Shown: piece after piece, positions 14,616-50,429 of the stretch | How the letters are laid out: every line of letters starts with the position of its first letter | How positions within the stretch are numbered: position 1 is the stretch's first letter | From: Armillaria gallica | Taxonomy: Eukaryota; Basidiomycota; Agaricomycetes; Agaricales; Physalacriaceae | Reading direction: 5' to 3' | Length of the DNA: 64,000 nucleotides | Assembly (NCBI GenBank): GCA_037576215.1 | Contig: JBANDB010000005.1 | Location: 2,976,001-3,040,000 of the forward strand | Notes under the pieces: model-generated | Seen by the model: the letters and a program-made list of their open reading frames with translations, nothing else | What the model was told of the DNA's origin: nothing | Databases searched by the model: none | Program-made: the position numbers and the translations under genes

Positions 14616-14690
14616 AGGCATAGCTGTAATTATACACCTACAGGCCATGGATAATATCCACAGAGCTTATTTCAGCAGCTGATCCAGCCC
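14616..14690 (+). repeat. Left terminal inverted repeat of KDZ B
   Basis: It contains AGGCATAGCTGTAATTATA and the motif CCATGGATAATATCC at about 14644, followed by a T-rich subterminal stretch similar to that of element A. Confidence 0.75.
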
Positions 14691-15146
14691 AAAAATTGGG
14701 CCCAGCCACTTTTTTAGGAATTTTTTTGCCTTTTTGCCTTCCAAAATAATCAATTTGGCCCCATCACTCGGCACTGTGCCTAGGCACACAAACCCCACAG
14801 CACTAAAATACATTGCCCCATAGCCATGGCACATACCCCAAAAACCACAAGTAATGTTATTTTCCTTCCTATGATATTCTTGAACATGCACATACCTTTT
14901 TCTATTTTCATGCTCCAACTCTGTGGCCATATTTTCCACAGTTATTTTGCAGCTATTTCTTCCCTCCCCAAAAATCACAAGTAATGTCATATTCTTGAAT
15001 ATGTACATACTCTTTTCTATTTCTGTGCTCCAATTCTGTGGCTGTATTTTCCACAGTTCTTATGCAGTTATTTCTTCCCTCAAATTAAAAGGCCATTATG
15101 AATCTATGATCATCAAAAGATTGTTCATTGTGCTACAAAAAATTAC

Positions 15147-17654
15147 TCAAGACTGAGATGCAAGTAGGTTAAGCAACACATGATGACACTCTTCCAGCAC
15201 ACCCTCCCATTCTGTACATAACTCTGACTCATCTCCTACAGCCTTGCCCCACCATGTGAGACATGCCACAGGAGACATGAAACCATTCTGGCCTCGCTTC
15301 ACCAAACTACTCCAATCCCCTCCTAAACCCAGTTGATGCTTGCTTGTCAGAGGACTCTCCACATCACCAATGTTCTGCCATATTGGCTGGAACTACTTCC
15401 ATCACGTCCACCAGTCGTCGGTGAAGTGACACAGACTCTCTGGGGTAACCTCAGGCTTGGTCCATCTATAATTCTTGATCCAAGGCCCAACCTCTATAGG
15501 ACATCCAGTCAGCAGCAATCCATGCTTTGCACCTTTGAGATCCTTGAAGCCTCCCCCACTCTCCCAAACCATCAAACAACCCAAGATATCTTTCCACTGT
15601 GTGCTATGGTCATACCCTTCCAAATATGCCACCAGATCTCCAAACCACTCAGGCCATGTGTTTCTCTCCAACAGAACTGCATTGGCTAGAGTTAGAGGAA
15701 AGGGAGGATCACCACTGTCATTACTGGGAACACTGTTCTTGAGTGCACTCTTCGGAGACGTGTCATCATTGTCATCGCAACCATCCAGTCTCTCCCCATC
15801 CTCCCTATCCATCCTGCCACATTCACCCTGCAGAGCATTGCTGGTGGCAGACAGAATGATGATGTTGCTGCTACCATTCAACATCACCACATCCTCTCCA
15901 TCCATCCTGCATTCCTCCTGTGGAGCGTTGTTTGGATCACCCATCACTAGGATGTCATACAAGTGCCTGGGGACTACATTCACATTTCCTGGTGGCAGTG
16001 CAAAATGCATCATCTCCTGTTGCAATGCCAGATTAAGATTCTCTGGCCACTCTCCACCCATGGCTTCTGAATCTGCAGTGTTATCTTTGGCAGGAATGAC
16101 TGCATTAGCCTTCATTGGGGTGCACTTTCTTCCCTCCACTTTGTCGGCCTTGTCTTCAGGTGTACTTGTGCCTGATGTGTTTGTGACATCCTGCAATGCT
16201 CTTGTCTTGCTCTTCTTTGCCAGACGTGGACTCCCTGTAGATTCTTTTGCCTTCTTTGCTCGCTTCTTCCCCTTCTTCTTCTCCCCTGAGTCAGCATCTT
16301 CCATGACATGTTCCTTCAATATATCTGCTGCTGTTGGTTCTAAATTGGACAGTGTCTCCTCAGGCACTTGAGGGATATCCATAGCTTGCGCTTGCATTTC
16401 TTGAGGTGCTAGAGCAGTATATCAGGACAGTGGTAGGCCAGAAAACCTCACACACACTTACTGAAACAAGTCTTAGCGAATGCCACAAATTTGGCCATCA
16501 CCTCATTATGTGCTTTTCCTCTGCCTGCATTGGACCAATCCTTGGGTCAAGGATCATGATTCCAGCCATAATTTAACCTGCAAGAACATCACCATACATA
16601 TATTTAAAAGTTTGATTACACTCATGAAATTCCATCAATTTGACCTCATTGTGCTGGATGCAGTGCTGCAATGAACAAGGTGACATTGGCAAAGAGGGAC
16701 CTCCCCAATGTTTCCATCCATGGCCAAGCAACAGATCTGATATTTTCCAAAACCCTTTCGTGGTGTGTCAGCCGATACCTAACCTCCAGGAACATATTAC
16801 ACACCTATTGGTCTCCTCCAGTGAAAGAGCTGATGTTGGAATAACTTTCTCGGCCATTCCAGCTGCTTTTCCTCCCTCCTCACTTGCTGCCTCATCCAAG
16901 CCTCCCCTGACTGCTTGATCTCTGCCACCTTTCATGCCACCCTGTGCCCATTGTGTCTCAGTCTTTTCCATGGCAGCCTGCTCCTCAAACAGCTGCCAAA
17001 CATCGGCTTCCAAATCATGGAAATAAGACAATGTCCATCGATTACATGCTGCTATCCACTGGTTTGTGGGAAGACCACTGCTTCTAAACCACTCCAAGAA
17101 ATCCTCTGTGATTGCACTGTTAAAACAAGCCTTCAACCACAACTGAGCTGCTGTTCTCATGTGCAGATGCATTGCATGTACCTCTTGAGCTGCGGAACCA
17201 GTGACTTTGGTGAGAAGATTTACAAGAGGAAAATTGGGCTTCAACGTCTCGACATTATTGAAGGCAGCAATACACTTTTCCCACCATCACAGGAGGACCT
17301 GGATTTGAATATATTAGTAATTGAAAATAAAAGACCCTGAATTTTGCACACCCCTCTCATTTGTGCTGCATGGTCAGCCTTGTATTGCTCCTCCTCTGGC
17401 ATTAAAATCTCATTTGGGTTATGCTGAGGAAGTTGAGGTTTCTGCTTGAATGACAGTGAGTGGTGGTACTTGTCATAGCACTGTGGGAGCTGGCGTTTGA
17501 CATATTCTTCCCTGAAAGACTTCCCTTTGTGCCACTCCTTACAGAAGCCCAGTATGTGATCCTCCATCCAGACCAAGCATGAACCCTGAGCCCAATAATG
17601 GTAGACATCGAAGACTCTGATCAAGCAAATGCTGAGAACATCAGCCCTGCACAT
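15147..17654 (-). pseudogene. KDZ accessory gene 1 (copy B), broken
   Basis: The minus strand encodes, in order, RVFDVYHYWAQGS with YHHSLSFKQKPQLPQHNPNE (about 17640-17350); a block with LWLKACFNSAITEDFLEW (17240-16770); a basic Lys-rich stretch (KKKGKKRAKKAK, about 16290, possible nuclear localisation signal); FALPPGNVNVVPRHLY; and the C-terminal module WPEWFGDLVAYLEGY, WIKNYRW, DDWWT, then RGQNGF and ACLTWWGK. This matches copies A and C. The frame is intact over 332 codons (15402-16397), then a TGA follows DDWWT. Introns probably separate the other blocks. The conserved WW, WR and LAWWG residues argue for selection on the protein before decay. Function unknown. Confidence 0.6.
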
Positions 17655-18353
17655 GTACCCATAAGGAAAACATTACTTACTTTACTGGTTTTGGTTGTCC
17701 AGGCATAATTCAGATAAGGAGAAAATAAGTCATGCCTCAGAGACATGTCTGAGTTGTGCTTGGACATACGTACACTAGGTCTCAAAGCTTCCAGAACCCA
17801 AACCAGGCAAATTAAACTTAGAATGACTACTATACAGCTATCCACAGACTTAGCTGAACATTTCACACTGGTGGCTGTGCCAGCAACTCTTTCGATCTGG
17901 TCTGAGGCCTGCATCCAGGCCAACTTGGTGATGACAAGCAAGGCTTATGTTCATCCTCTTACTCCCTTCCTCACTTCCAGATGGGCCAGCATACTCTTTC
18001 AAGCATCTACAAATGCACTATCTCGAAGATCTCACCAGTACAAACAGCAGAAACTGTTAAAATGTCAATATGAATTATTATCATAATAAAGTCAGTAGAT
18101 GGCCTTGATCATCCAATCCTATTGATATCTAACTTGCTATCCCTGATCACAGCTGCATCTCTTTACCTCTCACCCTCACAGCTCTTCCTCCTCATGATGT
18201 GTCTCCAGGCATACCCAAGTGACATCTAGTGAGCTCTTTGCCAATATTTCTTTTTTTCTTCTCACTAGGAATACAGTACTCGCCAACCGAACCATTTCGA
18301 TTAGCAGAATTGATGCTCAGACCACTGGCCCAGAGTCCATCCCTCTCTTGCAT

Positions 18354-19143
18354 ATGAACACCCATGCTCAGCCACCATCGTTGTCCTCTCCACCACTCTC
18401 TCCTCATCATGGTCGTGGCCAACCACCGAAATACAAAACCGATAAGGAACGTGCTGCCACACATGCTGCCAATCAGCAGGCATATTACAACTGGTAATCC
18501 TTTCCCACCACTTCATTTCCAGGACTAACCCTTCCACCATTCAGAAACCAGGCCAAGGTCTGCCATTGCATTTGCCACCACTATCATGAAGACCATGCCA
18601 AGGCGCATACATATACCTAGTGCAAGATGCGCACCAAGCCTAAGCATTTGCATAACAAGGATGGGGACAAACCTGCATCAAGGTAGGGCTGTTTGCCATG
18701 GTTTTCTTACTACTACACTAATCCTTTTTGAACCCAATCCCAGGCATTGCACGCAGAAGCACCAAGATATGGAGCGGGACACAGACTTTCATGCTCAGGA
18801 CATCATGACCCACCTGGATAAACTCAAGACTGGTCTCACTACAGTGCTGTTCCTCACTGGAGTCTATGCTCACACCATCAGTGATTCCTCCTCACAGCCA
18901 GCCATTTACATCAGCAATGTCTTAGGAGGCTTCAATTGCCTGGAACGAGAGGTGAGCTGACAAATAGACCAGTATTACAAGAATGAAGGGTGCTCGGACA
19001 GGTGGCAGACATTGGATTGCATTCAGAAGGCTGTACAGGAAAATGTAGCACTGTTGGAAGATCTCCTATGCTCAGCAATGTTGGGGCAAGATGAACTGTG
19101 TTCAGCATGGGTACAAGGAATGCTCTCATATATGCATTTGTAA
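18354..19143 (+). pseudogene. KDZ accessory gene 2 (copy B)
   Basis: The N-terminal exon encodes a Pro/His-rich start, GRGQPPKYKT (AT-hook-like) and ATHAANQQAYYNW, ending at a GTAATC donor. After a gap with one stop, an exon from about 18745 encodes KHQDMERDTDFHAQDIMTHL and, to the TAA at 19141, WQTLDCIQKA and NVALLEDLLCSAMLGQDELC. The two ends align with copy A over their whole length, including the final MLSYMHL against LMYLKI. An in-frame TGA lies near 18960. Its partner and role are unknown; a DNA-binding accessory factor is only an inference from the basic motif. Confidence 0.5.
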
Positions 19144-19179
19144 ATAATAACAATATTTTTTTGCATTTTTCAATCTTGA

Positions 19180-20424
19180 GTGACTTTTGTCACAGCTGTG
19201 ATACAGTGTGACCATGGGCAATGCCAAATCTTGGTCCTACCTTTCTCCATCCATTGCTCCCACAAATTTGATCACAACAGATGGCAAACATTGCTGAGAG
19301 GGCTCAGGTATGTCATCTTCTTATCTGTATCACCCCTGATTGTCAGATTGACTCTGCCAGTGCCCACAACATTGGTGGTTCTTGCACCACCTGGAGATGT
19401 TCCTGGATATTCCCTTGGATGAACATGATACCTGGACTGTGTCCCATGTTGGACCCTTCCTTCTGAATTTCCCTGAACTTGCATTGCAATGGAATTCAAA
19501 TGAGGAATTGGCCTTGGTAAGTTCCTTATACATACAATATGGAGATACTATTCTAATATTTTACAGTTCTTGCACAGTCATTTTGATGAATTGGCACAAG
19601 AGGAGCAGGTGCAGCTCAGCAGACTGGGCAAACAAGTCGAATGGATCTGGCCAACTCATCTATTTTGGGGTCCTGATCCGAACAATGAAGGATGATAGGC
19701 TGTTGAGACAGATGACAGGGATGCCTGGAGCAGTGGCAGGTGGGGATGGGGAAATTCAAACTGAGGCAGAGATGCTGAGGACAACCAGCATAGCACTTGG
19801 CCTAGCAGCGAGAACTGGGGCCAAGGTGAGGGTGAGGTGGGCAGGGATGCTGCTGGAACAGAGGCTGGAATACTGGGTACTTTCGTGGAGGATTTGAAAA
19901 ATGCACTCTCAGATGCATTGTAAATTGTCTCTCTGTCTATGTACATTCTCAATTTTATCCATGGAGATGGACATCTAGGGTTATCTCTCCCAATTTATTT
20001 TCATTCGACCCAATCTAATCTCACCTAACAAGCCACCATGTAACGTAATGCCTTCTCTTACAACTGTACAGTTTCATGGGTATTCCCACCCACAGATTAC
20101 ATCTCGGGCACAATAATTTTCCTATAAATTTCAAAACATTGATATCAAACATGATAAAAGGCATGATGAAAGTGAGTGCCTATCACTTCCCTATCTCTGA
20201 GAACTCATGTTCAATTGCAAGATTAGATCGAGGCTGCCTACACTCCTGAGCAACACCAGCAGCTCCACAGAAAGGCCATATTTTACAACAAAGTGTGCAA
20301 TGCCAGCCAAGCCACCAAGGCTGATTGGTTGGAGAAGTTCTACATTGAGTGGTTCCTCCTGCATTCCAAGGATTCCAAGCTGGTGGGATTAGACCAGGAG
20401 GCAGCTGAGTGGGCACACAAGAAG
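19180..20424 (+). pseudogene. KDZ accessory gene 3 (copy B), 5' part
   Basis: A probable exon near 19390-19515 encodes DIPLDEHDTWTVSHVGPF, followed by an intron of about 50 bp (GTAAGT to ACAG, around 19518-19566) and an exon with FDELAQEEQVQLSRLGKQ and WIWPTHLFWGPDPNN. A further exon at 20230-20424 carries AIFYNKVCNAS and FYIEWFLLHSKDSKLVGLDQ, the block shared with copy A, and ends at a GTATGT donor. The hAT at 20516-26468 then interrupts the gene, probably within an intron. The 3' part continues at 26469. The family is not recognised. Confidence 0.45.
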
Positions 20425-20689
20425 GTATGTGCCATATCCCACAATCTACACAGTAGATACTGACACTACACCAGGATTTGGTGAAGATGTTGTGGTAAAG
20501 ACTCGCATGGTTCCCTACTCGGGTGCACCCACACCCATCCTGCTGGGTCTTGTCAGCTCAATTATAGTACCCATGACCCCCACCCACACCTGGGTGCTGC
20601 AGGACCCGGGTCCTACGGGTACAGGTGATGGGTATTCCATGGGTCTTTGCAGGTATGCATTCAAAATTCAGTGGTGAATATATAATTTA

Positions 20690-23200
20690 CAACTATAGTA
20701 ATGATAGATGATCCCAATGATGTTATCCAAAAGTAAATGTGATATATGCTACAAAAAATTGATGGAAGGTTAAAATATGCAAGAGCAACATTCAAAACTA
20801 AATATCTACAAAGGGACAGCGAATTGTTGATGTTAATCATCCCTGCCATGCACTCGTGAGTCGTTCAACCTGTGTCCATTTTGCTTTCCATGGTGTCATG
20901 TCTTTTTGAGCTCCTCAAATTCTCCCAACATCACTCCACTCGCTCTCATACCCTCACCGTCAACGCCAGCACCTTCTTCTGCCTTTCTCGCCACCTTTGC
21001 ACCAATTGATACTGCGTGAACCTTGCAGCAGACTGAGCTGAGATGGAGGGGTACAGAGAAACAGTGTGCAACTTGAAGGTATGCATGCGAGGAAGCCATA
21101 AAGGAGAATGATGAGGTACCAAGTCAGAAATCCATGCTCATACAATAGTGTCATCAGAGGTATGACCAGGATATTGACCGTGACTTGTATCTGGACCTCC
21201 AGTGAGGGTGCTTGTTGATCTCTTGGTGTTCTTGATGTGGGTTTCACATGGGCATGCCATGCTAGTCAAACATATTTAAGTCCACAGTCAGATAAGAGCC
21301 GTGTTTTGAACTCTCACCTGGATGAGGCTATCATACACGAACAGCTCATATAGGAGGTATGAACATGGATAACAAGCTTGATGCATGTTCATGGGTGCAA
21401 CACAAGTCCAAACTTGTTAATTGAGGGCCCCACGCTGGTGACAATAGGTTGACTACGAGAATGAAGTGGGAGACAATGTCAATGCTATCATTGGTGCTCG
21501 GTGCTCCACAGCCTTAACCAGCCCTCTACCCTAACCCTTTGTTGTTCTCAAACTCTCCCCAACCCCTCTCGTCATCGCCATTCCAGTCGTCCTCGTCCTT
21601 GTCGTCACTATCATTGGTATTGCATTCCTAGCACCCTTGCACCCCGAGATGGGGTTCGATATCAAATCCCTATCAATATCTAATGTTCCCAAGTCCTACA
21701 GTTGCATGCTCGGCGCGATTGAGGCCAATGTGCGTGTGGGAGAGATGGTATGTTTCGTGGCAGGGCATTGTGGGCATATCAGAGCCATAGTGGGCAAGTA
21801 TTGGTCAGGTCGTTAATGGCCAGTGTGGTGGTGGTATCAGGCTGTGTAGATGGGTAATCTACCTTGTGCGAGGTAGAGAATGGGTGACATCAAAAGGTGA
21901 GGGTGTAGAGATGAAGGATGCTGCATTCTGTTATGGCTGTAGAAGGTACTCGCATGGACTAGCAGGATGGCAAGTCAGCAGGAGGCATCATATGTACTGG
22001 CAGAAGGGATGGCTGTGGATGTCATCCTAGTCAACAGTTGGTGCAAAGGGTCGCTGTTTGGGAGTTGTATATGGTGTAGCCTCGCGTGAGGGCTGGCCAG
22101 TCCACTGCAGACCTCGGAGGGTAATCAATCTTCATGCTGGCAAATCATGCCTGGCCACAGTTGAGGATATGCTGAAGATGGATATATTCCATGTATTGAG
22201 CATTCTTCTGAAAGATGAGGATGGGTTAAGGTGGTGTATAACGAAAAGAAATATGCACACAATTCATACTCTTGCTCTTCAATTTTGTGACCTCCTGCTC
22301 CACAGCTGTGAGCCTTTTCAGCACACTGGCCAGCTTCACCTCGAATACAGCTGAACAATCGACAGGAGCGATTGCATCATTGTGGCTAGCATTGAGTTGG
22401 TACTGGAGAGGTGTATCACTGGGAGCAGGAATGAAGATGTTGATCACTCTGAATTGCATATCCAGCAGCAATTGATGCCGAGTGAGCTGTCGTCCTGCGA
22501 GGTGGATACTGATATCGACAAGACCCTCACAGGTATTGGCCTGGGTGATGACGGACAAGAACAGAGAAGTAGATGCTTAAAAAGGGAAGAGGTGATACGA
22601 ATGGAACAGATTTGGATGGATACTTATGGCATGGCAGTTTCTATCCTGACTTTGACATGTCCACTCATTCTTCCCTCCTTATCCTGGCTTTGACCTGCAT
22701 GGGTCAGGCTATCTGCTTGACATTTTGTTGGCAGATATTATCTGATTCTATCATTACCTTCTATGGTATGCTAAACCTATGGCATGTCCATCATTGTTGA
22801 CATCAACGAGATCATCAAGGAGGCCTCGATGATGGATGACAAGGATCTACAGGCTGGTAGTTCTTGGATTATCCATTGGCAATGTCTAGGCCGACAATAA
22901 CTTGGGGAGTGATAGGAGCACCAGCTGTATAAGTACGTTTTGCATGTTATGTCTACATCTATTTGCGCAATATTATGAGGGTCAACGTCTCATCAAGACC
23001 TTTGGTCCTAGGCTTATCCTCCTCAAATGTCCTACTGTAACAATGGCAAAGCAGTGATCTATTGTTGAGGATCAGATCATGCAGTTGGCTTGCTTGCCAG
23101 GTATGTTCAGAGAATTTTGATGTCATTACCACAGACTCAAATTATCTAGCTTTAGCTTTCAGGCAAATTTTCCTGGTGTTGTGCATTGTCCTTGAAGAGC
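20690..23200. other. Non-transposase interior of the hAT element
   Basis: About 2.5 kb between the left hAT end and the transposase promoter has no frame I can assign. The best candidate is 22226-22558 on the minus strand, a 110-codon frame with a helical stretch (VKLASVLKRLTAVEQEVTKL) that could form a coiled coil. It may be a captured host gene fragment, a relic of another insertion, or chance. No second copy exists in the window for comparison. Confidence 0.3.
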
Positions 23201-23259
23201 CTTTGTATCTATAGGTGCACCCAAATATGGCAGCTGGGTGGCACCCACTAACTCGTTCT

Positions 23260-23266
23260 TATAAAG
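23260..23266 (+). promoter_or_regulatory. TATA box of the hAT transposase
   Basis: TATAAAG lies 36 bp upstream of the transposase ATG at 23302, with a pyrimidine-rich stretch (TTGTCTTCCTGCATTCTCAC) between them, as in many fungal core promoters with very short leaders. Confidence 0.45.
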
Positions 23267-23301
23267 ACCCACGTGCTCCCTTGTCTTCCTGCATTCTCAC
23301 T

Positions 23302-26253
23302 ATGTCCAAATCAACCTCCGCTCCCACAAATACATGCAAGAAAGACTCCCAACCTAGACTGGTCATGAAACACAACCAGTCAAAGTCTGCACTGAAGAAA
23401 TGGAAGCAAGGCCAACACAATGACATGATGACTGATGATGCAGACAGTCCATCAGTCGATGTTCCCCCAGCATTGAAATGGAGCCGAGCTACTGGAGATG
23501 GGTCTGAGTCTGCGAGCCAGAAACCGATCAAGGTATCAGACAATGACTTGGGTGGCACAGAGGAGGAACTCAAACATGAGAAGACCAAGGAATCAAGACT
23601 GGCGTGGTGAGGCAAACTAGGTGAGTTGTTAGGCCAAAAAATCATACCTCAATCTCACAAATTGGTAGCAAAATTGCGGAAGAAATGGTCAGCTCCAGTC
23701 TATGACCATTTTTTTCCAGAGATGGGAGTGTCGTGGAACTCGAGGAGCCAGAAATGGCAGCAGGTCTTTACTTGCCGGCAGTACGTGTTATAACTGTCAC
23801 TACAGGTTCCCCATTAATCACTGTACAGTGATACAAATGTCAAAGTCCACTGTCCCTTTCACGATAATGGCACCGCCAACCTCATTTGTCATGACCGCTC
23901 TTGTAAAGGAGCTGATGACACTGATGACGATGAACTGAAACTTGTCCAGAGCAGTCTTACTCCCTTTGTACAAGGCTCGATGTACACTCCTGGCCGCCTT
24001 TGTCTCAGGCATGTTCAAATGTGTGCCAGACACCATGTCCCTCATGCCTTTGTTGAGTGGGAGGAATACCATGGCATCTTATGCATGTTCAATAAGGACG
24101 TCAAGATCTCCTCTGCCGACACTCTTTCACGTGATATCAAGGACATCTACAATCTTGTTAAAGTTCATGTGGCAAAGCTACTGCAGGGTGTGAGAGGTCA
24201 CATCCATGTCACTCAAGATGGCTGGGCTGTGCCACAGAAGCTATCACTTCTTGGTTTGGTTGTTGTTTGGGTAGCCGATGCCAAAATCCAGGTGTTGACG
24301 ATGGATATGCTTCAGTAAGTGAGATTCTCTCTGACTTGTGCTATGCTGACAACCATATAGTTTGAAAAAATCACACACCAGTGCTAACCTCACTGAAATG
24401 ATTGGCAAGAGCTTGCGGGAATTTGGAGTTGTCAACAAACTATTATCACTCCCCGGTGACAACGCGTCAAGTAATGTCACTATGACTTGCTGTCTCAAGA
24501 GTTCTGGGAAGCTCCCAAGCGGCCACATCATGGGTCCAATGACTCATGTTCTTTGTGCTGGTCACATCTTTGACCTAGCGAACAAAGTATGTCGCATCAC
24601 ATTTACTCTCGTCTATCCAAATTTAATAATATTTTACAGGCAATATTCCGTTATTTTGTCAAGAAGGCCAAGACTACGAACCAAAGCTTCCTTGAGGATG
24701 ATGACAATGCCTGGCTAGAAGAAGACAATGACGATGAGCTTGATATGGAGGAGCAAGAGCTATATGATGAATTGCACTCTGACTTGCATGAAGCTGATGA
24801 AGAAGAACTCTTAGAGAACTTGCTTGATACCATTGAAAACTTGCAGGATCTTGAGGAGGAAGATGGCATGGTAGGACGGAACACTGTCATGAAGGTATGT
24901 AATGGTTATTGATAATCATCCACCTGCTATATGATATGGTCATAGATCTTTAAACTCAGATGCCGGATATTTAACAATGGCACTATGCAACAGGATCTAC
25001 GAACAGAGTGTGGCAATGCTAGTATCACTATTCAAGATATGATTTGTGCTGTTATCACACGATGGCTTACACATGGCACTGTTCTGCGGCATGCCCTTGA
25101 ACTGCGACCAGTGCTGGATGCATTTTGCGATCTCGACAAGTGGAACAAAATTCCGAAAAAGGCCATACAAAAATTCAAGCTCGATGATCTTGAGTGGCAG
25201 TTTCTTGAGGAGCTCAAGCCCATTCTCATGGTGCATGTATTTCTTTTCTGTCATTGATTCCTTTGTTTACCCATCTGCAGATGCTTGCGGTGGGTACAAT
25301 TTGCCTGTCAAAGTCTGGAGCAGCTTTGATCCATGAGGTCATTCCCATGTTTGACGGAATGATTGACAAACTCGACAAGGTTATTGTCAACACCAGGCTC
25401 TTGCCTGGGGTCTGGGCAGCTGCAATTCAAGCACGCCAAGTCCTCTGCAAATATTATTCTAAAACCGATGACATGTATATGTACCGCATGGCCATGAGTA
25501 AGTGTCTATCTTTCCTTCGCATCCACCACTAATCTAGCCTTGTCCAGTTATGTACCCTGCCTACAAAATAGAGTACTTTCATGAACAAAAGTGGAAGGCT
25601 GAATGGGTAGATCAGTGTTATGAAATTGTCCATGAGATTTGGTCCAAGTATTACAAGCCAGAGCTGACTGCTGTTGAGAACGACAGAAAGGTATGTCTGT
25701 TCATTTTATGTGTGTGACAGCCAAACTCAATATACAAACAGTCCTCTGGTGATTCTCTAGATGATATACTCTCTGATCTCCTCAAGAAGCGGCGCCGCAA
25801 CAGCAATGATGACACCCTTGAGAAGTATCTTTGCGATCCGGTCCTTGAAGAGCTTGACAACCCCCTTCATTATTGGACAAGCCTCTTAGATCCATGCGAC
25901 AAGTTTGGCAAGGTCTCACACCCAACATCGAAAGGCACCCTGGCACAGATGGCATTGGATTTTCTATCAGCACCTGGTACGGTCTATTTTCAGAACAATA
26001 GCAGTGTTCCTAAGATTTTATCACAGCAACTTCGACCGATGTTGAACGACTTTTTTCACAAGGTGGCCTAAATGTAATGAAACACCATCACAATCTCTTG
26101 GCAGAATCAACAATCAACCAAACGGTTCTACACTCCTGGATTAAGTACCCTGGCCTTATTGATGAGGACAAGTTGACGGAATTTTTTAACAACAAGTCGA
26201 AGCGACCCAATAACAGTGCAAAGAAGGAAGTTTTGACTGTGGACAATGACTAA
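23302..26253 (+). pseudogene. hAT-family transposase with eight introns and one in-frame TGA
   Basis: Splicing at 23781-23828, 24315-24360, 24587-24639, 24895-24945, 25231-25280, 25498-25547, 25691-25741 and 25977-26026 gives one continuous frame of about 850 codons. The N-terminal third is basic and has a Cys/His cluster (CRHDTNVKVHCPFH, ICHDRSC) where hAT enzymes carry a zinc finger. The middle has the RNase H-like core (HVTQDGWAV, GDNASSN) and an acidic insert. The C-terminus is the hAT dimerisation region (SAPATSTDVERLFSQGGL, LLAESTINQ). Only TGA at 23608 interrupts it. A 48-bp intron starting GTGAGT directly after would keep frame but not remove the stop. Apart from this stop the gene looks intact. 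Confidence 0.75.
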
Positions 26254-26468
26254 TTGTATATAAAATCTAAATCTATTTCTTGTTTTCTTGTGTGTAGTTA
26301 TTAATGCTTGAATTATGGCAGGTCTTAGGCAGGTCACCCAGGTCTCACTGTGTTCTTGCTGCCATGACCCGGACTTGTTTGGTGGCCTGGATCTGCATAC
26401 CCATGGGTGCGTTTCTATAAAATTTTGAAGACCTGGACCCGGTTCTGCATGTGGGTGCACCCGGGTAT

Positions 26469-27209: not shown

Positions 27210-27210
27210 A

Positions 27211-27223: not shown

Positions 27224-27250
27224 TTTCCAGGTTCCTTAACTGGAACCCCC

Positions 27251-33750: not shown

Positions 33751-33775
33751 CTGTAGATTTTAGGCTTTGAATACA

Positions 33776-37794: not shown

Positions 37795-37924
37795 TGTTGT
37801 TCTTCCATTGCCACATTTCTTGATACCTACAGCTACACATAAAATTTTGTAATATACCTATTGAAATCAAACTTGATGCTGTGATATAAGACTGAAATGA
37901 GCCCCACTCTCAAAATCTCAAAAA

Positions 37925-39103: not shown

Positions 39104-39449
39104 TTGTACCCCTGTAGCTTGTTCATTCGACATTGCAATATCACTCGATGATGTCACATATTGAGCGGTCCATGGCCCGAACACAGGTTTTCTTGGTTTG
39201 TATTCCTTCCTCCTTCTTTACAGATGGCTCCTTTATCGCAGCCTATTTATCCTCCTTCCATGTCCAACCTTTGTGGTTGCAGACACTTCACTATAAACCT
39301 ATCGCTCGCATGTGCTTTGCTGGATCTGTGCACTCAAGATCGACCGCGCTTTAATACCGACGCACTACAGATGTCGACGTCGAGTCTAGAAACAGCTGTC
39401 ATTTTGTGACCGACGTGGTGGCCTGTCACCTTTTTTTTCACTTTTCACT

Positions 39450-40215
39450 ATGGCCTCTGTTGCCTACAAACCGGGAGAGAGGCTCCCTTCTCTTGGTCAG
39501 TATTTTTTCTCCTTGGTGAGCAGAAATAGGACATTCATTTTTTTGAAGCAGTTTTCAGTACACTAGATTGGAAACCAGAGGACAATAATTTAGCTGGTCA
39601 AGCCAAGCAGCAACCTGAAGGTGCATTGCAGTTTGTCGCTGGTGGCATTCGCTTACCATCTCATCTCATTCATCTCAGCGGCGCAAGAATCGAACCTGGC
39701 ATGGCCAATGCAGGCTCCAACTCTACTTCCCTTTGCGCCAAGCCCAAAAAGCCTTGATGGACTTGAATCACCCGATCCATCTGAACCATATGCCATCATG
39801 GTACCCTATTCCATTCCGCCGTCTGCAGAAAAATACCTTCGCATCCATCATCGCTGTATGTGCTTTCATTGGTTGAGCGATAATCACTGACTAGGTGCTG
39901 GCAGAATATCTGCGCCACTTCATTTACTGGGAGTTACTGGACTTTGAGAAGCACTGCCCCAATAGACCACATTGGTGCCTTCGACATCGGGCCTTTCATT
40001 GCGCCACAGAACGGTTTCAGGATTTGAAGATTGCGACAAAGGTGCCTCTTGATACGGCAACATGTATATACTGCAGCAGCACGATGAAGTGCACCTATCT
40101 TCATTCAGATGGCTCTGCCCTGAACAAGGCATATACACCAGAGGACGGAGTGGTTCAACGTACCTATTCTTGCTGTGATTTGTTTGAAATGACCACCTAT
40201 GTTCTAGATTATTAG
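39450..40215 (+). pseudogene. Unidentified KDZ C cargo gene, C4
   Basis: A start at 39450 (MASVAYKPGERLPSL) is followed by a probable intron, then the reading ALQFVAGGIRLPSHLIHLSG and, in another frame, FRRLQKNTFASIIA before a GTATGT donor. The exon from 39895 (VLAEYLRHFIYWELLDFEKH) encodes a Cys/His-containing tail (CIYCSSTMKCTYLH) and ends at TAG 40213-40215. The switch of frame near 39720 is either an unrecognised intron or a frameshift. I do not recognise the family. It lies directly upstream of the transposase and could be its 5' partner. Confidence 0.35.
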
Positions 40216-40323
40216 ATAGTTGTGTTAACTTAGCATAATTTTGAGGCTCATGGCCAATTTTGGAAGTATTATGTCACATGATATCGTTGACTCTGATCTT
40301 CCTCTTCCCCACATCTCTACTCA

Positions 40324-43300
40324 ATGGCAACAACTTGGTCAACGAAGCGGCGCTCTCGATACGAGCAGGAACAGCGAAGAGCCTTTGAGAGGGCAAACGG
40401 CCAATCTTCCTCTCGTGGTGGCCGCCCAGTCCTTTCCGATGTTTACGTCGGGTTCTCAGGTCCTCACTCTCGGCATGCAGAATCTAAGCGACCAGGCGTC
40501 TCAGCTGTGGGCCATCATACTTTCCATTTTTCAACAGACCTTACTGGACATTATGGCACGGTCGTACCCCCTGCCAAGAAGAGACGAGTGAAGACTGACG
40601 GCGTCAAGGACGACTATGCTCAGTGGATTCCTGGGTTGGACAAATATGAGTCGCTGGAGGACTATCTGGGATACAATGTGATGACAGGTACATCATTCCT
40701 AGATTCATCAGGGGATGTGAACTGCATTGGGGGCAAGAGAAAGGGTTATGATAGCTCTGTGAGTTATGGATTCTGCCCAGCAGTAGGGCAGCATGAGACT
40801 AACGAGACCTAATCCAGGACAATCCTATGAAAGTTTGGCAGCGGTTGGAGGGAGAATTTCTCAATGAAACTATCCGCCGAGCTGGTCTGGGGAATGCCAC
40901 TCGCAAACCCATTTGTTGTTGATGCCTTAAACAATTGATCGTCGAAGGAGAGAATGCAGTTGCAGGGGACAAACAGTACATTACTGATCTGTTTCGCTGC
41001 GAGTCATGTGGGCCATTCATGGAGTGTAAGGAATGCTGCCTGCACTGACATCAGTGAACTCCGTTGCACAATATTGAGGTGAGTTCTATTCGCACTGAGT
41101 CAATGTAAGCTCTTACCCGCTTTTCAGAGATGGAATGGCGACTTTTGGGAGAAGACCACACTATGATCCATGGGCTTCATCTTCCAGCTAGGCCATAATG
41201 GTGGTCAATGTATCTTTCCAGCCTGTGTCCCTTCAACAATTACCGTCCTACATACTAATGGTGTACACCAAGTTTGCTATCAGTATTGTGGCTGTGATGT
41301 GTCAGACAGCAAGAATAAGTGGCGCCAACTCATGCAAAATGGCTGGTACCCAGCAACAATCTTACAGCCGGTGACATGTGCTACCTTCAAATGCCTCGAT
41401 ACCTTTCGTCTCCTTTGAGTCATTGCCACTGTTAACGCCCGTGACTACGTTACTTTCTTGGAGCAAACCACAGATCCCCTGGGTACAAGCTGGGTACCTG
41501 ACTGGTACAAATGCTTCGGCTGCATGGCTAGACAGTGGTCTTATTTAATGTGCCTCCGCAGAACCAGAGTTGGTCATGCAGATGGTGGGATAGAATCGGC
41601 GACTGTGGGGGTCGTCGCAATACGATGTTGGGCATGTCCTAGGGTAGGAGTCAACTTACCTCCAGGTTGGGACGAGGCTGAAAGGGACAAACAGTGAGTT
41701 TCATCTTTCATATTCACATGAAGGCGGCTCTGAGTGATATCCCATAGATATCTATATGAGAAAAAGTATTCTGTCAACGCTAACTTCTGAATGATGAACC
41801 GCATGTGACAACTTGCCCACAAGGATCCTCCCCTGTACTCTGGCCTTGGGTATCAAGTGCCACAATGCTCTTATCATATGTGGATCAAGCAGTACATGTC
41901 AGAAGAGGAGGTATGTTATCGACAGATACAAAAATGGTCAATTGTGCTAATGTATTCAGATTAGCACATGCATTGCCTTTGCCACATTAGAACAAAAGAA
42001 TACAAAGCTTTGCACGGGGCTTCAGACTTCCAGTGTTGTCAGATGTTTCGATACACGTCATGAACTGGTTGAAAGCATGGGAGATCTCCAGGTGGGGGAG
42101 CGGTAAGTACTTGTATTTTCAACTATCCAAGAAAGAGCTGACAGATAGTACTACCAGCTACAAAAACACTGACTTTGTTCTTGCCATGGCACTAAAAGAC
42201 TGCAAACTCAAGCACGCCATGGTTACCTATGACATCGCATGTCAGTACAAGAAGAACTGGCCAAAACGACGAGCAGAGCTCCCTGCAGACCTTCAACCTG
42301 AGGATGGTCCGGATGTTCATTTTGCACTGCCCATGTGGCATGGAGACATTCACCAAGTGCCGTGCAAAATGGAGAATCTTCTCTCCTATCAGAAGGGTGG
42401 CACAAAAGGAGATGGAGAGTGCCCTGAGCACTTTTGGGGTGTCGCCAATCCATTTTCACATGCGACCAAGGAAATGGGACCCGGAGCGAGACACAACGAT
42501 CTAGAGTGCAAGATCGATAGTTACAACCATTCAAAAAACATTGGATTAGGTATGTTCTCTGGTATATTCTACAGTACTTTTTTGACCCGTCTACAGGCAA
42601 GTCCTTGGCTCGCCGGCACAAGATTGCTTTAGAGGAACGCAATGTCCAGGTAGCAAGTTTCAAGGACATCAACGCTACCTTGCGCAAGGACCTACGGCTA
42701 GAGTGGACCCAGATGGTTGAAGAGTGGGAACAAGATCACACGAAACCAAATCCCTATGCACCGACGGTCACTAAGAGTAAGCTATGGATCTCATGAAGTC
42801 TTACTCGCTGTACTGATTAGGTCTGTTTAGCATCTATTTCAGAGGCACAGGTTCGACTTGATTTGCGAAATGATGAGCTAAGAGACAAAGCAAGTGATTG
42901 CCTGGTGCAGCAAGCTACAAGTATTGCCACATTCCTCATTATGGGCTTGGAGTTGGAGGACACTCAGTACGTATATCATTTATCATGCAATACAGCTGTG
43001 AATTATTATTCCAGGCAAAGGATACGGGCTTATTCAACTTCGATGGCAAACCTCACACTAGACAAAGAAAGCAAGATTCAGGAATGACGATTGGCATTTT
43101 TCAAGAAACTTGGTAACTTCTGAAAGTCTCAAGACGTGTACATGCCTGGAGTCAAGACCCTGATACACGCAGTGGAAGCAGAGAGAGATATTGATGTGCT
43201 GGCACCATTAGCGGAGGATGTCAAATTATGGCTACCCTCTGATGTGCCTGCCCACCACAAGGTGACCGTTGCAGCTGATGGCCTGTACAAGGGAGAGCTA

Positions 43301-44208
43301 CATCTTCGCCAAGGTCAATGTTCAGATGCACTAGCCCAACTTCGGAATAAACTCCTCACGAAGAGATTCTTGATCTCTTTCCGCAATGCCAACATTGTGG
43401 GCCAACGTATGTCCACTCGTGCACGGTCGCTGATTGCATCAGTGGGTGACGGCATCCAGACGGCTGCAAGGAAGTATCGACAGGCTTGAGAAGCCTTGGT
43501 AGCTCTAGGTGGTGAGGAGAAATGCAGTGACTTCAGGGTATTATTGGATGAAGACCTCGTCTTGTCCGAGGAAGTGGAAGCTGATGCCGTCGCAATGAAA
43601 CGGCTATCAAGACTGGGCTGACGAGATTCACGGGTGACTACAGGCTGAATGGGTGGGACGAAGAAGCACATATATATATCTCAGAAGGGTAAGACAATGT
43701 CCTGGATCTGGACAGCTATGGGAGGCCCTGATGCAGAAACAGAGACACTGCATGAATGTGAGTCAAATTTTGTTGATCGTAGACTTTTATTGATGTCATC
43801 ATGATAGCTGTGCGAATCGAATGGGCTAAGGTGTGCACGTGCAAGTTCCGATGGGAGGAGGAGGTACAATGTCTCAGAGAGGAGATGTGGCGGACGCTAT
43901 GGTCTCTTGACAAGGTGCAACGTGACTGGAGGAATCGCAGCTCTTGCTGTGAGTCTTTGACTGTACAAGACAATTCAGGTCATCGTGCGTACGCCTTACG
44001 GCAGGCAAGTTTTCTCAGTACAATCAAGTCTTCGTTTGAACAGATCTGAGGAATCAGGGATGCTTCAACAGAGGATTTCGTGGACTATTTGGCATTATTT
44101 ACCCCTGATGATGTGCCCGAATTCAGTAACGAGGACGGTTGTAATGACGATGACGATGATATCTCCAGCCACAGTGATGCCAGCAATTTGGAAAATAGTA
44201 GTATGTAG
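40324..44208 (+). pseudogene. KDZ transposase (copy C)
   Basis: A basic N-terminal region (MATTWSTKRRSRYEQEQ) leads to the KDZ entry block (DNPMKVWQRLEGEFLNE), then the CxC2-like cysteine cluster (CESCGPFMECKECC, VLHTNGVHQVCYQYCGC) at about 40990-41295. The catalytic part includes FVLAMALKDCKL, VTYDIACQYKKNW (42223-42261), FALPMWHGDIHQVPC, GDGECPEHFWGVANPF and KEMGPGARHNDLE, the conserved KDZ signatures with their acidic residues. It ends with an acidic tail at TAG 44206-44208. Many short introns are needed. Apart from these, in-frame stops are mainly TGA, for example at 40920 and in CCLH-stop-HQ, TL-stop-SMGF and FRLL-stop-VIA. The enzyme family cuts and pastes DNA at its TIRs. Confidence 0.75.
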
Positions 44209-44434
44209 GGAAGGGACGGTTTATTTAGTATATTTCCATTTGCCAAATACATATATCTCACCATTTCTTAACAATATGCTGCTTCTAATTCTTGTCCGGG
44301 ACCGGTAAGCATACCCCTAACCATCCTGATAGTGAGCTGGCAACGGCACCCTGGCAGGTGCCGCACTGAGTTCAATGCCGACAGCTGAGCTTAGGTGATG
44401 CCTATATCTGCCCTACCTGGAGCTAGCCAGCTGT

Positions 44435-44479
44435 GGCTAGAGCCCTTGAGAATTCAACGGGTTTTGCTGGCTAGCTCCA
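44435..44479 (-). repeat. Right terminal inverted repeat of KDZ C
   Basis: Reverse complement of the left block at 33776-33820. A second GGAGCTAGCCAG lies just inside, at 44419-44430. Confidence 0.8.
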
Positions 44480-44494
44480 TAGCTTAAGGCAAAT

Positions 44495-45169
44495 CCTGGT
44501 CACCACAGGTGAGTGCAATACAACAAAAAGAAATGCCCAGCAGTCGAGTACTGAGTAGGAGACAAGGTTTGGCTTGACACAACCAACCTCAATCTCCCAC
44601 AACCAAAGAAAAAACTCGCAGACAAACAGACGGGCCCATTCAAAATCGTCGCCAAGAAGGGAGCTTCAGCTTATACCCTCGAACTACCTCCCAATTGGCA
44701 TATCCATCCCACTTTCAACGAATCACTCCTCACACCCTATGTACCCCCCACGTTTCCCAACCAAGAACAACCTCCACCGTCCCCTCCAGACCTAATAAAC
44801 GGCGAAGAGCACTACGAGGTTGAAAAAGTCTTGGACAGCAGGGAACACAAAGTCAGAGGAAAAGCCAGTGAACCCTGGCACTGGGTAACAGACTACTTTG
44901 TAAAATGGAAAGGCTATGAACCAGAGTCAAACAGCTGGGTACGAGAGGACAACATGGACATGGAAGAACTCATCGACGAATACCTCACCAAACACATAGA
45001 TGTGGCCTTTACCAAAAAGTCACGCTGGCAAAATTATGTTGACAGAACAACAGGGAAAAAGGCATGGGAGCACAACGAAGACTATGAAGATGAATGGGAC
45101 TGGCTAGGCAGACACGATGACCCATCAACAGACACTAAATCACCCTGGGAACTGACAGAGATATCTTAA
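44495..45169 (+). pseudogene. Pol polyprotein, 3' part (integrase C-terminus and chromodomain)
   Basis: The frame resumes with NKKKCPAVEY, a TGA at 44552-44554, then VGDKVWLDTTNL and GPFKIVAKKGASAYTLELP, the usual integrase C-terminal beta barrel, and FNESLLTPYVPP. A chromodomain follows (WVTDYFVKWKGYEPESNSW, about 44887-44943), which in chromoviruses can target integration to chromatin. The protein ends at TAA 45167-45169. This is the downstream half of the gypsy pol split by KDZ C. Confidence 0.85.
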
Positions 45170-45192
45170 CAGCAGTTGGGATGCCTGCCTTA

Positions 45193-45204
45193 ACAAGGGG
45201 GTAA
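45193..45204 (+). promoter_or_regulatory. Polypurine tract before the 3' LTR
   Basis: AACAAGGGGGTAA immediately precedes the LTR start TGTTATG at 45205, the expected place for plus-strand DNA priming. Confidence 0.65.
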
Positions 45205-45642
45205 TGTTATGATTTATTCATTTTCTTACTTAAGCACCTCTTATCTAATCTTATCTTCAGTGCTTACCTTATCTTATCTTTAGGATCCGGGACTTCACAG
45301 AGTCTTCACATCATTATGCACTCATACTCAGTCACCAGGCATCATGGTTTGTCACTTTCTAACATGATGCTTCTATTATCTTGGTCGCCGTGTACTTGGT
45401 TTGTCACTTTCTAACACGGTGTCACTATTATTAGGACCCTCATCTTAGTATATCAGTAGCGTACTCAAAGCTGTACATTCTCTAGCTTTGAGCTAACATT
45501 TATTCATACTGAAACACATTCATTCTCGCTAAAGCGCTAATAACGTTACATCAGAATGGTCAAGCATCACGAGACTTAGTGGTGACTGTACGAATGCAAT
45601 ACAGCCATCTATTTACTCTTGCTTGGGCATTCGGGTCTAACA
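45205..45642 (+). repeat. 3' LTR of the gypsy
   Basis: Matches 26824-27209 with about 15-20 substitutions and a 52-bp insertion near 45365-45416 that partly duplicates GGTTTGTCACTTTCTAACA in tandem. Confidence 0.92.
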
Positions 45643-45647
45643 CAGTT
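45643..45647. repeat. Right target-site duplication of the gypsy
   Basis: CAGTT, identical to 26819-26823. Confidence 0.85.
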
Positions 45648-45904
45648 CTTGTAGTTTTCTCATAGATTTCCAGTTGATTCATGCAATATGATATCCTTAC
45701 ACATGCTCAAATGTTTTGACTGGAACAGTGAGATTGAACAGAGGGACTGAATACTGTTTAATGACTATGACCAGTCAGACATTTCAGCTATCATCTTGTG
45801 GAGCCTGTCCAGTAGTTCCAAAGTGTTGTCAACCACTAATCCTGTGGGACAACTGTCATTCAGGCTCCACCATTGCACCAGATGCATCATCAGGATCTGG
45901 ATGA

Positions 45905-46140
45905 GTGCCTAGGTGCCATCAGACAGGAACCTCCTCTCAAAAGAGGTGAAGACATACCACTTTGCATTCATGGATGTCATCCTCCTCCTCAGCATCGCAA
46001 TACATCTTGAATAGATTCTCAGGCCAGTGTGCAAACCAGCATGAGAACAAGATATCCTCCAGCCATCATGGCACCCTTCCCTCTCTCGCTGCCCACTCAA
46101 AGTCAGGGAGTAGGACTACCAGAAATTCCACTTGCTGATT
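45905..46140 (-). pseudogene. KDZ accessory segment 4 (copy B), minus strand
   Basis: The minus strand reads DFEWAARERRVP, WLEDILFSCWFAHWPE, then MYCDAEEEDDIHECKVVC, aligning with 14144-14465 in element A. One stop follows RRVP and others follow the acidic block. Same position (between gene 3 and the transposase) and same orientation in both elements. Function unknown. Confidence 0.4.
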
Positions 46141-46554
46141 GGAGAAAGGCAGGAATACTGCATAGTGTTGGGAGACAATGAAAGATGATCTGCAAAATGT
46201 CATGGTTATGTCTGTCACATGTTAAAGGCATATGTCAGCATGCACTGTTCTGACAGTGCAAGGTTTTGCCAGGGACTGCTGGCAATGATCAGTCCCTGCA
46301 TTCCCATCAACAAACTTCATGATCTTACCTGCACTCATTTGTATCGAGGTTTTTGCTGCTGTGCATGCTCATTGCAGTCACTGAGCAACACATGTATGCT
46401 GGTGACCTGAATTTTGAAGGCTTGCATGGCAAACAATGTCAAACTGAATGCCTGTGCACCCATGTCCCGACCAACAAGCACACCGTGAGTGGTGAGCTAT
46501 AACAAGCACTGCACTGAAAAAACCTTTTCCATCCTGACTACTCACCACATCCAC

Positions 46555-49500
46555 ATGGGTTCTTCTTCTAGACGACAACAAGAACAGGCCGGTGCCCCCC
46601 TCCTACAGTATCTGGACCAGGCAACCGCGTCTTGGGCAAATGTCCCTGTGGATGAGCTCTATGCCAATCAAGATGTGTGGGAGCCAATTATTGCACCTTC
46701 AATTCCTGGGAGAAATGCTAACAAGAGATATGCAAACTCAGTATGTCTATGACAGTGCCTATGGTTCTGGGCTCTTATATTTCTGTTATTTGGGCTAGGA
46801 TGTGCCAATGAAGGAGTGGATGGGATCGGGTGCCTCTCCAGGGTATCAACAGGAATATTTGAGGGAACTGTTGAGGTTGGAGGGTCATGAGGGAGTCACC
46901 ATGGAGGTCTGCCAATCCAGTAATAAAATGCAACAAATGTGGAGCAGGGTTTTTAGAGTGCATTACATGCTCAGTCAAGCAACACAGGTGCATGCCTCTG
47001 TATCGAATCGAGGTGTGTTGAACTCTTCCCTATACTACAATGCATCGAGTACTGATGAGTGACTACAGCATTGGAACAGATCGTTCTTTGAGGATTATAC
47101 CCTGAGGAAGTGTGGGCTGAGGGTGCAGCTCAGACATCAGAACATGAGGTGCTTGAAGCCACAGCTGGTGATGGCAGATTTCACAGTCTTGCACACAAAT
47201 GGTATTCACAAGGTGTCGGTCAACTTTTGCAACTGTCTCGAGCACATACCTGTTTGCATTCAGTGCCTTCGCTTTCACTGGTATCTGGTGACAATGAGAA
47301 GACCTTGAACTTGTGCAACTCTCATGCTGCTTAAGCATTTTCACACTCAGACATTGGCAGGCAAGATCTCAGCATACAAATACTATCGAGGACTGAGTCA
47401 TATGACCGACAATACAGAAGTGGATTTGCCTAAGGTGAGGTGTATCCTGGCATGTGAGCAGAATTGGTGGACTGAGGAACTGTGGCAGAGTTGCTACCAT
47501 TCGTTCTTCCAAATGAGCCAGCAATTTCGTCATTTGCAGATGATGAAATGGTTTGGTCATGGTCACTTCAAGGATGGTATCAAGACAACCAAACCAGGTA
47601 CACTGGCTCTCCCTTGCTTAGCATGTCCTTGCCCAGGTGTGAACCTGCCAGAGGGTTGGGAAAAGGCACCAGATAGTGAGAAGTGAGTGTTCAATGTGTG
47701 GGGAAGTTGTGGTGCTCATTGGTCATCCAGATTTCTGTATTGTCCTATTCTCGGTTTGGACATGAATTTCCATCTGAGTGAATGAGACAAATCCAACAAG
47801 GCAGCTGACCTGGGCTTGCACACTGGCCTTGTGTATTGTGTTGAACATGAAGAGTATCTGAACCACATGCACAAGTACATGTCGCAAAAAGATGTGAGTG
47901 CTAGCTAGGTTTTAGTTCATTCACTTGACCTGATAACATCTTCATCCAGATCAGTAGTTGTAGTGGCTTTAGAACACTGATGCACATGGAGAGCAAGAAC
48001 AACAAAGGCCTGAGAGTGATGGGTGTGGGTATACATGTATGCGCACACCACAAAATGATTCTACCTCTTGCCACCAGGGACCTGCAGATTGGTGAAAGGT
48101 GAGGATGCCATTGGTCTCCATTATTATGAAAGACTGAGAAATGATAGATTTTGTAACATGGATTATATCATCAGGTCAGCAATACAATCTGTTGACAGAT
48201 GCAAGGAGGTCTTTATGTCCTATGACATTGCTTGTCAATGGAAGGCCAACCTTTGTCAGTGAATGAAGGTCATACCGCAGAAGGTCCCATCCATGATGAC
48301 ATGGTGCTCAACTTTGGTGTCCCCAAGCTACATTGTAAAGCACACAAATATGTGTGTCAGTGCCAGTTTTCAATGAACTTGAAGTGGGGCATGGCATGAA
48401 CAGACAGAGAAGGAGTGGAGAGGACCTGGGATGACCTGAATCTGTGTGCATCATCAACAAAGGAGATGGGGCCAGGTGCATGCCATGACACAATTGATGA
48501 TCAGATGGGCAGTCACAACTGGCAGAAAATTACATGTATTGGTATGTTGTTTTGACTTCAGCTGTGATGGGGAAGATTAAACAGCTCTAGGTGATCTTTT
48601 ACACAAGAGACAGGAGTGGGCTGTACTGCAGTGTGGTCAACAAGCCACAATACATACAGCTTTCACCGAGGCCCTACTAACAAACAAGAAATGGGCACAA
48701 GACTGGACTGAGCATGTGGAGGCTTGGGAAAAGAATGATATGGTGCCGAATCCCTACTTCAAGGAGGCCAAACGTGAGTATTTGTTGATTGCCTGGATTG
48801 TGCTGGTCTCATGGATGATACAGATGCTTCAGAGGTGACAGTCAAGCATCATTTGAAGGAGCAGGATTGTGTCGCAGCATCAGCAAAGGGTAGTGTGCAT
48901 CTCCATGTGTGCGGACCAACAGCGGCAATCGGAATGGGACTAACAATTGAGGAATCACAGTATGTACCTACTTCAGATGAGATCAGGAGTGATCTGATAT
49001 GTATTTTTGCAAGCGCAACCTCATACAAGACTTCAAGGAAACATCGGAGGAGCCTTTGACTCTGACACAATAAAAGGAATGACAAACATGCTGTCTCACA
49101 CTACAATGGCAGGTGACTCAGTGGAGGGAGATACAGGTCACCTACTTACCCTGTGCAGTGACTCTGTTGAAAGTTGCACCTGTTCTTGCCAATGGGTCAG
49201 ATGTAGAGAGCAAGAGATTGCTTTTGCCCTCAGATATCCCTTTGTTGCTCAGGATAGAGGGATGTAAGGGGGATGTTGTGAATATTGAGGAGCAATTATG
49301 TGAGGCACAGTGCCTTGATGCCCTTGATGTGCTGAGGGGAATCATCAGGGCTCAACGTGACTCATATGTGTATCATGATGCGAATATGAGGGGACAAGTC
49401 CACATGACATGGGCAGCAGCATTCATGGAACATTTGCAGCGGTGCCTGGAGAGTGCAGCAGCAAAGTATTGAGCTGTGAGAGCAGCTCTGCTGAGCTTGC

Positions 49501-50213
49501 AAGGGCCAGGAGCTTGGTAAAACAAACTGAAAGTTTTAATGCAGGCAGATGTGATAAACATAGAGGGTGCTGTCTTTACAATTGACCTGGACAATGGCAC
49601 TGAAACCAAAAAGACTTGCTATGGCAAGAAGCCTAAGAGGACACATAGCAGGTGGTGAGTGAGGCAGCAGAAGGATACAGAATGGTCTCTTGGATCTGAA
49701 CTATAGAGGGAGCATTTGACATGGTGGATAACAAAGAGGTGAATTCAGGTGAGTCTGAAATTAGAACCTGTGGCTCTGTCTGATGGCAGTTTAGTTGTAT
49801 GTGTAGAGTGGTTGAAGAGCCACATGCATGTGCATAGATGGCATGAAGAGTTTTGTATAGTCAATGCTGAAATGGAACGCACCTTGATATCTCTCAAACA
49901 TTGTGTGTGTGAGTGGAAAGATATCCAGGATGTGGGCAACAGCTTAGTGGGGGAAATGGAGGAAGACGCAGCATTGTGAGAGGGTAGATGTGCATATGCA
50001 GAAAGTCAGGCTGCCACATATAGGGCTCTGGCAGTGTCATTCAAATCACAGTGGGCATGACCAAGGGCAAGTGTGAGATGACCTTTGCATTCAGCAGATG
50101 AGGCTATGGAGATGGAGGCAAAGGAAGATGCAGAGGAGGAGAGCCCTGTAGAGGATGGTGCCATGGATGCCAGATCAGTAGACAGTGCCATAGGTGCCAT
50201 GTTATTAGCATAA
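46555..50213 (+). pseudogene. KDZ transposase (copy B), broken
   Basis: Begins GSSSRRQQEQAGAPLLQYLD, then MKEWMGSGASPGYQQEYLRELLRLEGHEG. The CxC2-type region reads ADFTVLHTNGIHKVSVNFCNC (about 47170-47235), followed by LLKHFHTQTLAGKISAYKYYRGL and LACPCPGVNLPEGWEK. The catalytic part keeps VFMSYDIACQWKANLCQ at about 48210-48260, then breaks: the H-x-H and E-R-W blocks are present but in shifted frames with stops. The C-terminal half (49100-50213) has remnants of the conserved helical region and an acidic tail (EAMEMEAKEDAEEESPVEDG) to TAA 50211-50213. Stops of several types and frameshifts mark it as older than copy C. Confidence 0.7.
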
Positions 50214-50339
50214 TCAAGGGTTTTGGCACTTTTCTCATTTTTGGCATGATCAGAGGCTAGTTATCCATGCTGGGAGGCATATCCATGAATTATCCATGAA
50301 ATGAGGCTGTAGATGGGTCCCATTTGGTAGCTTAATGAG

Positions 50340-50429
50340 TGGTTGATAGCCATGAATAATATCCATGGAGGAGACTTCAGCACCCATGGATATATCCATG
50401 GATTGAGGTCTACAACTACAGCCAACTGT
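50340..50429 (-). repeat. Right terminal inverted repeat of KDZ B
   Basis: Holds CATGAATAATATCCATGG (about 50351) and CCATGGATATATCCATGG (about 50387), and ends CTACAACTACAGCCAACTGT, the inverse of the left end at 14616. More ATCCATG copies lie just inside, at 50260-50300. Confidence 0.75.

Follow-up and report, generated by a model that had tools for sequence, protein, structure and literature searches.

The 64,000-nucleotide window of Armillaria gallica DNA analysed here contains three nested KDZ transposons, Z, A and B, each of which has a KDZ transposase at its right and a second gene, termed gene 1, at its left. Gene 1 belongs to the KDZ elements as a resident: in six delimited multi-copy elements of the same genome the aligned borders take in gene 1 as well as the transposase. 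Our preferred interpretation, held with some reserve, is that the window contains three nested multi-gene KDZ copies, most like Kyakuja, in which the resident gene 1 acts as an architectural DNA-binding subunit.

Gene 1 within KDZ elements and beside their transposases

Ten gene 1 neighbourhoods (e1–e10) were fetched, of which six (e1–e6), from two multi-copy families, were extended. In e1–e6, to which the enclosure result applies, the aligned copy borders surround both genes, the elements measuring 16.1–17.7 kb in e1–e4 and 17.7 kb in e5 and e6, which are 99.1% identical. All six have the ends CA..TC. Exact 7-bp target duplications occur at e3, e4, e5 and e6, and e1 matches at six of seven positions; at the aligned borders of e2 a 7-bp duplication was looked for and none was found. 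The aligned borders and duplications thus place gene 1 within elements that have moved.

An earlier, sequence-only reading of the window proposed counting, across basidiomycete genomes, how often gene 1 occurs no more than 15 kb from a KDZ transposase with matching terminal inverted repeats, and held that a gene 1 family found mostly away from these transposases, or element ends that exclude gene 1, would speak against its view. We made this count in the window's own genome, using single-protein queries exon by exon and scored candidates only. Five queries from four lineages gave 82 gene 1 loci, after matches less than 3 kb apart on one strand had been merged, while the 131 merged KDZ loci come from that part of the 169 matches to the domain PF18758 that was listed, together with extra matches from further searches. 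When the expected layout is defined as a KDZ match on the expected side of gene 1 and on the opposite strand, 49 of the 82 loci have such a match within 15 kb and 65 within 30 kb, against 1.4% and 2.4%, respectively, of 20,000 random places drawn on match-bearing contigs, some of whose lengths are approximate. Collapsing five near-identical families gives 39/71 and 54/71 at the two distances, and excluding the window gives 48/79 and 63/79. Among 39 Gypsy retrotransposon copies that served as a control (40 listed matches of 344 candidates, minus one in the window) none was near a KDZ locus within 15 kb, and two were within 30 kb, neither in the expected layout. Indeed, 53 gene 1 loci have their nearest KDZ match less than 15 kb away and 48 of these share one layout, in which gene 1 sits by one end, is typically transcribed towards it and is read divergently from the transposase, which occupies the opposite end. 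From the KDZ side, gene 1 is present in the expected layout within 30 kb of 65 of the 131 loci. In this genome, then, gene 1 is not mostly away from KDZ transposases, and the element ends that were delimited do not exclude it. At G000:C1:1955222-1955791 and C7:1102048-1102617 the layout is different: gene 1 and the transposase share a strand, with gene 1 lying 3–6 kb upstream.

Co-divergence of gene 1 and the transposase

The KDZ tree comprises 69 transposase cores picked by hand from the 131 loci, 43 with gene 1 and 26 without; as the choice was made by hand, this share should not be read as a frequency. Labels were assigned before the tree was built, and include as positive one row (C1_1952) in which gene 1 is on the same strand and not in the usual layout. 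The tree rests on 133 columns and many of its forks are weak. The gene 1 label changes 11 times on this tree, at least seven changes being forced by well-supported branches, whereas shuffled labels change 21 times on average. Gene 1 is found in all five rows of the group that contains B, in 21 of the 22 rows grouped with A and Z, and in seven of the eight rows grouped with e1, e5 and e7, and it also occurs elsewhere. The 26 rows lacking it fall into one far-off group (five rows), another group (nine rows), positive groups (two rows) and scattered positions (ten rows). A gene 1 tree was available for 29 of the 43 positive rows, including C11_1683, for which the closer of two gene 1 loci was taken and whose branch in that tree is very long. 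Across these 29 pairs the gene 1 and KDZ path lengths are correlated (Mantel r=0.75, p=0.0001; the best of 9999 permutations reached 0.48), and both trees group A with C7_3333, C2_6558 with C7_3283 and C5_3790 with C3_3135, and place e9 near e10. The bond between gene 1 and the transposase therefore looks old, and this co-divergence, together with the genomic association, argues for gene 1 as a resident partner of long standing and against casual cargo. The findings also indicate that, beyond loose cargo, many KDZ elements contain a second gene that has been with them for long.

It should be emphasized, however, that several observations run counter to a general or strict association. A gene 1 match in the expected layout within 30 kb is lacking at 66 of the 131 KDZ loci, and 17 of the 82 gene 1 loci, including that of Z itself, lack a KDZ match in that layout and distance. 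Six of these 17 do have a KDZ match within 30 kb in another layout, and decay, further nesting or missed matches may explain other unpaired loci. In addition, the nine-row KDZ group, some members of which are almost identical, has no detectable gene 1, which argues against a strict need for the gene. The sequence-only reading had offered gene 1 either as an obligate partner in transposition or as cargo spread by KDZ elements. The congruent distances favour the partner over the cargo, but the 66 loci without gene 1 in that layout and the near-identical copies without gene 1 mean that 'obligate' is not shown. The nine-row group includes G000:C4:5313536, C1:5823296, C16:1098235, C1:7041094 and others.

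Predicted fold of the gene 1 product and its possible role

In the lineage of B, the gene 1 product is predicted to be HMG-box-like in its N-terminal part, which a long disordered linker joins to a helical domain at the C terminus. The HMG-box-like fold is predicted for gene 1 of B and for a Mycena homologue; it is not shown for A or Z. The predicted model has the three helices of the HMG fold, and in structure comparisons the top 44 re-aligned chains for the window's own exon, and the top 18 for the homologue P0007, were HMG-box-like. Furthermore, a 17-row gene 1 profile searched against Protein Data Bank sequences gave eight matches at E values up to 10, all of them HMG proteins. The Pfam HMG_box sequence family (PF00505) was matched by three of the 17 members without significance (best E 0.064), and thus we describe the domain as HMG-box-like and do not file it as an HMG-box member. 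The C-terminal helical domain of B's lineage gave no trusted match.

Our best guess at the role, which is inferred, is that gene 1 encodes a DNA-bending helper, the element's own architectural DNA-binding subunit. Such a protein would bend or bridge the element ends, enabling the transposase to pair ends many kilobases apart, and a transposase that pairs ends separated by 10–18 kb could gain from a bending protein of its own, while the C-terminal domain may bind either the transposase or a second copy of the gene 1 product. The role would be akin to that of HMGB1, an HMG-box protein described as bending Sleeping Beauty transposon ends during synapsis and as assisting RAG1/2 (PMC7827188), although HMGB1 is encoded by the host and gene 1 by the element. 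More tentative is the wider proposal that fungal KDZ transposons supply themselves with an ancient HMG-box-like subunit, co-evolving within the transpososome, where Sleeping Beauty uses a host HMG protein.

It could be argued that gene 1 is instead a regulator or a silencing-escape gene, acting for example through chromatin binding, which is kept by the element but stands outside the transposition machinery. Several findings are consistent with this: the chromatin proteins SSRP1 and BAF57/SMARCE1 are among the HMG matches of gene 1, the middle part of the product is long and disordered, YL1 nuclear protein is matched by 10 of 54 gene 1 members (best E 1.4e-5), and one KDZ group does without detectable gene 1. 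There is also a precedent in the TET/JBP genes of fungal elements, which are described as thought to counter silencing (PMC12730594). Tight co-divergence and a fixed layout are what a direct partner predicts, but a long-kept regulator would show both too, and we regard a regulatory role as rather unlikely.

We consider it improbable that gene 1 is passive cargo, captured once and carried since. Although its position within the element borders agrees with such a history, and a single capture would also yield congruent trees, gene 1 occurs in several transposase groups and shows coding constraint. Between young copies the ratio of nonsynonymous to synonymous substitution rates (dN/dS) is 0.33–0.46 for gene 1 pieces, compared with 0.21–0.44 for other accessory pieces and 0.17 for the transposase core, values that derive from two pairs of copies, short pieces and few sites. 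That gene 1 is a host family found by chance in repeat-rich regions is very improbable: the 17 loci without a KDZ match in the expected layout might suggest it, but Gypsy copies show no such association, a single layout prevails among near pairs, and six multi-copy elements enclose gene 1, findings that already contradict it. If gene 1 does act as a subunit of the element, the agaric family of 'hypothetical proteins' to which it belongs (89 database proteins match the profile) would be a transposon protein family. The analysis places this large family of unnamed proteins in transposons and proposes for it a role that can be tested; genome annotators could mask it as transposon genes, and the elements make it possible to study a transposase that has evolved as a pair with its possible DNA-bending cofactor.

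Organization of the window and relation to known elements

The order of nesting is Z, A, a Gypsy retrotransposon and, innermost, B (Table 1), and at least two of the three KDZ copies are decayed. The sequence-only description is thus confirmed in part: it put the elements at about 11 kb, which holds for B and not for A or Z. Inverted end repeats are present in all three, those of A being imperfect. The sequence GGCACATTC flanks A on both sides; if GCACATT is read as a 7-bp duplication, A has the ends 5'-CA..TG-3', the identical span being 9 bp. The Gypsy element, which contains a reverse transcriptase domain (PF00078, E 2e-36), made a 5-bp duplication, CAGTT. For B, the alignment to three Gypsy relatives stops at 33738–33740 and picks up at 44516, so that its ends are not exactly fixed; the core of its terminal inverted repeats (TIRs) lies at 33776–33820 and 44434–44478. 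A target duplication was not found or not readable at B's flanks, and none was found at those of Z, whose right end was set by eye from its likeness to that of A.

Table 1. Features of the nested elements. Positions are those of the window; LTR, long terminal repeat; aa, amino acids.
Feature	Position	Strand	Remarks
KDZ element Z, outer, interrupted by A	5028..~54667	+	13.8 kb net
Gene 1 of Z	5655..8103	+	orientation opposite to that in A and B
Accessory gene 3 of Z	11846..12268	+	
Target duplication of A, left copy GCACATT	14608..14614		
KDZ element A, interrupted by Gypsy	14615..50430	+	duplicated target site; 17.0 kb net
Gene 1 of A, several open pieces	15150..17672	-	
Segment of A	18198..18494	+	Z counterpart at 9660; 41% over 66 aa
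Accessory gene 3 of A	18529..19140	+	Z counterpart 11846-12268
Segment of A	20227..20460	+	Z counterpart at 13415; 37% over 59 aa
Gypsy LTR retrotransposon within A	26824..45642	+	LTRs 26824-27209 and 45205-45642
KDZ element B within Gypsy	~33739..44515	+	10.8 kb
Gene 1 of B	34188..36649	-	
Predicted C-terminal domain, gene 1 of B	34188..34763	-	alignment
Open exon modelling as HMG-box-like domain, gene 1 of B	35760..36311	-	
Accessory gene 2 of B, with the hybrid-binding N-terminal domain of RNase H1	38408..38926	+	PF01693, E 2.4e-7
KDZ transposase of B	41167..44046	+	PF18758, E 1e-23 in 41991-42629
Segment of A	45768..46221	-	Z counterpart 14600-14125
KDZ transposase of A, several open pieces, CxC2 cysteine cluster	46799..49976	+	PF18803, E 3.4e-9
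Target duplication of A, right copy GCACATT	50431..50437		
KDZ transposase of Z, several open pieces	51000..54019	+	PF18758 match C5:3028386-3028766

The features of KDZ membership, the PF18758 domain and the CxC cysteine cluster of the transposase, are present. PF18758 matches above the cut-off in this genome include positions in A (C5:3024289), in Z and in B, where one exon scores 84.7 bits (cut-off 26.6). Gene 1 adjoins the left end in all three elements, as had been claimed, and reads towards that end in A and B; in Z it is reversed. The open pieces of B's gene 1 may be exons, the last of which has 61 matches genome-wide. In A, the exon at 15405–16421 is 68% identical to a copy at G000:C7:3342555, and in-frame stops interrupt the C-terminal domain in both A and Z.

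The conserved multi-gene cargo postulated by the sequence-only reading gives way to lineage-specific sets. The order of accessory genes is kept within each of three lineages (e1–e7; e9, e10 and B; A and Z, which have four segments in common), and at E 1e-5 no match was found between these sets or to e8. The accessory genes other than gene 1 thus look like replaceable modules that differ between lineages, and the elements appear modular. For six of the seven genome matches to gene 2 of B, a KDZ match follows within 15 kb downstream, and the RNase H1 domain scores 23.1 bits in e10 and 20.2 bits in e9 (cut-off 21). Gene 3 of Z has 28 genome matches, with a same-strand KDZ match downstream of 21 within 15 kb and of 25 within 30 kb. 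Twelve of these matches are no more than 6 kb from KDZ loci that lack gene 1; six of these loci are rows of the nine-row group, with gene 3 about 3 kb upstream.

Large multi-gene KDZ elements are already known. The present elements most resemble Kyakuja in their 7-bp target duplications and, for A, CA..TG ends, a likeness drawn from ends and duplications, the KDZ tree being built from loci of this genome. Descriptions of TET-bearing Kyakuja give CA..TG ends and target duplications of 7 bp; for Zisupton the duplications are 8 bp long (PMC12730594). Kyakuja-1_LB and -2_LB of Agaricomycetes share with our elements the KDZ transposase, 7-bp duplications, CA..TG ends (in A) and an extra gene (Kojima 2025, PMC12730594). 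In contrast, TIRs are described there as absent from Kyakuja, while all three elements of the window carry inverted end repeats, and the young families found here end in CA..TC, unlike the CA..TG of Kyakuja; the portion of that account covered does not mention gene 1. No TET/JBP gene scored above the cut-off in this genome, where three weak matches were seen, of which the closest to a KDZ locus is 17 kb away. KDZ1, KDZ2 and KDZ3 of Cryptococcus neoformans, reported to be mobile, are similar in their size of 9–11 kb and CxC cysteine cluster (CxC1), but have TIRs of 139–241 bp and duplications of 4–8 bp (PMC12810828). The giant KDZ elements of Ectocarpus and Chlamydomonas are likewise large, with nested insertions and extra genes, but no HMG-like partner is mentioned in the sections of that report covered (PMC12477816). 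Nuwa, a Harbinger element, similarly combines a transposase with a dedicated DNA-binding partner, although its superfamily and its DNA-binding fold (Myb/SANT) are different (PMC12730594). A widespread, co-diverging gene 1 with a likely fold and enclosing borders was not found in the parts of the KDZ literature covered, so that priority is not certain.

Other repeats are also present in the window. Pieces akin to the coding region of the Gypsy element inside A (28–45% identity) lie at 3615–5083 and are perhaps an older Gypsy copy to the left of Z. A dispersed 1.1-kb repeat, in direct orientation and 83% identical, occurs inside Z (10798–11903) and outside it (56857–57972), with no common flank seen, and a tandem array with a 102-bp period occupies 58174–58683.
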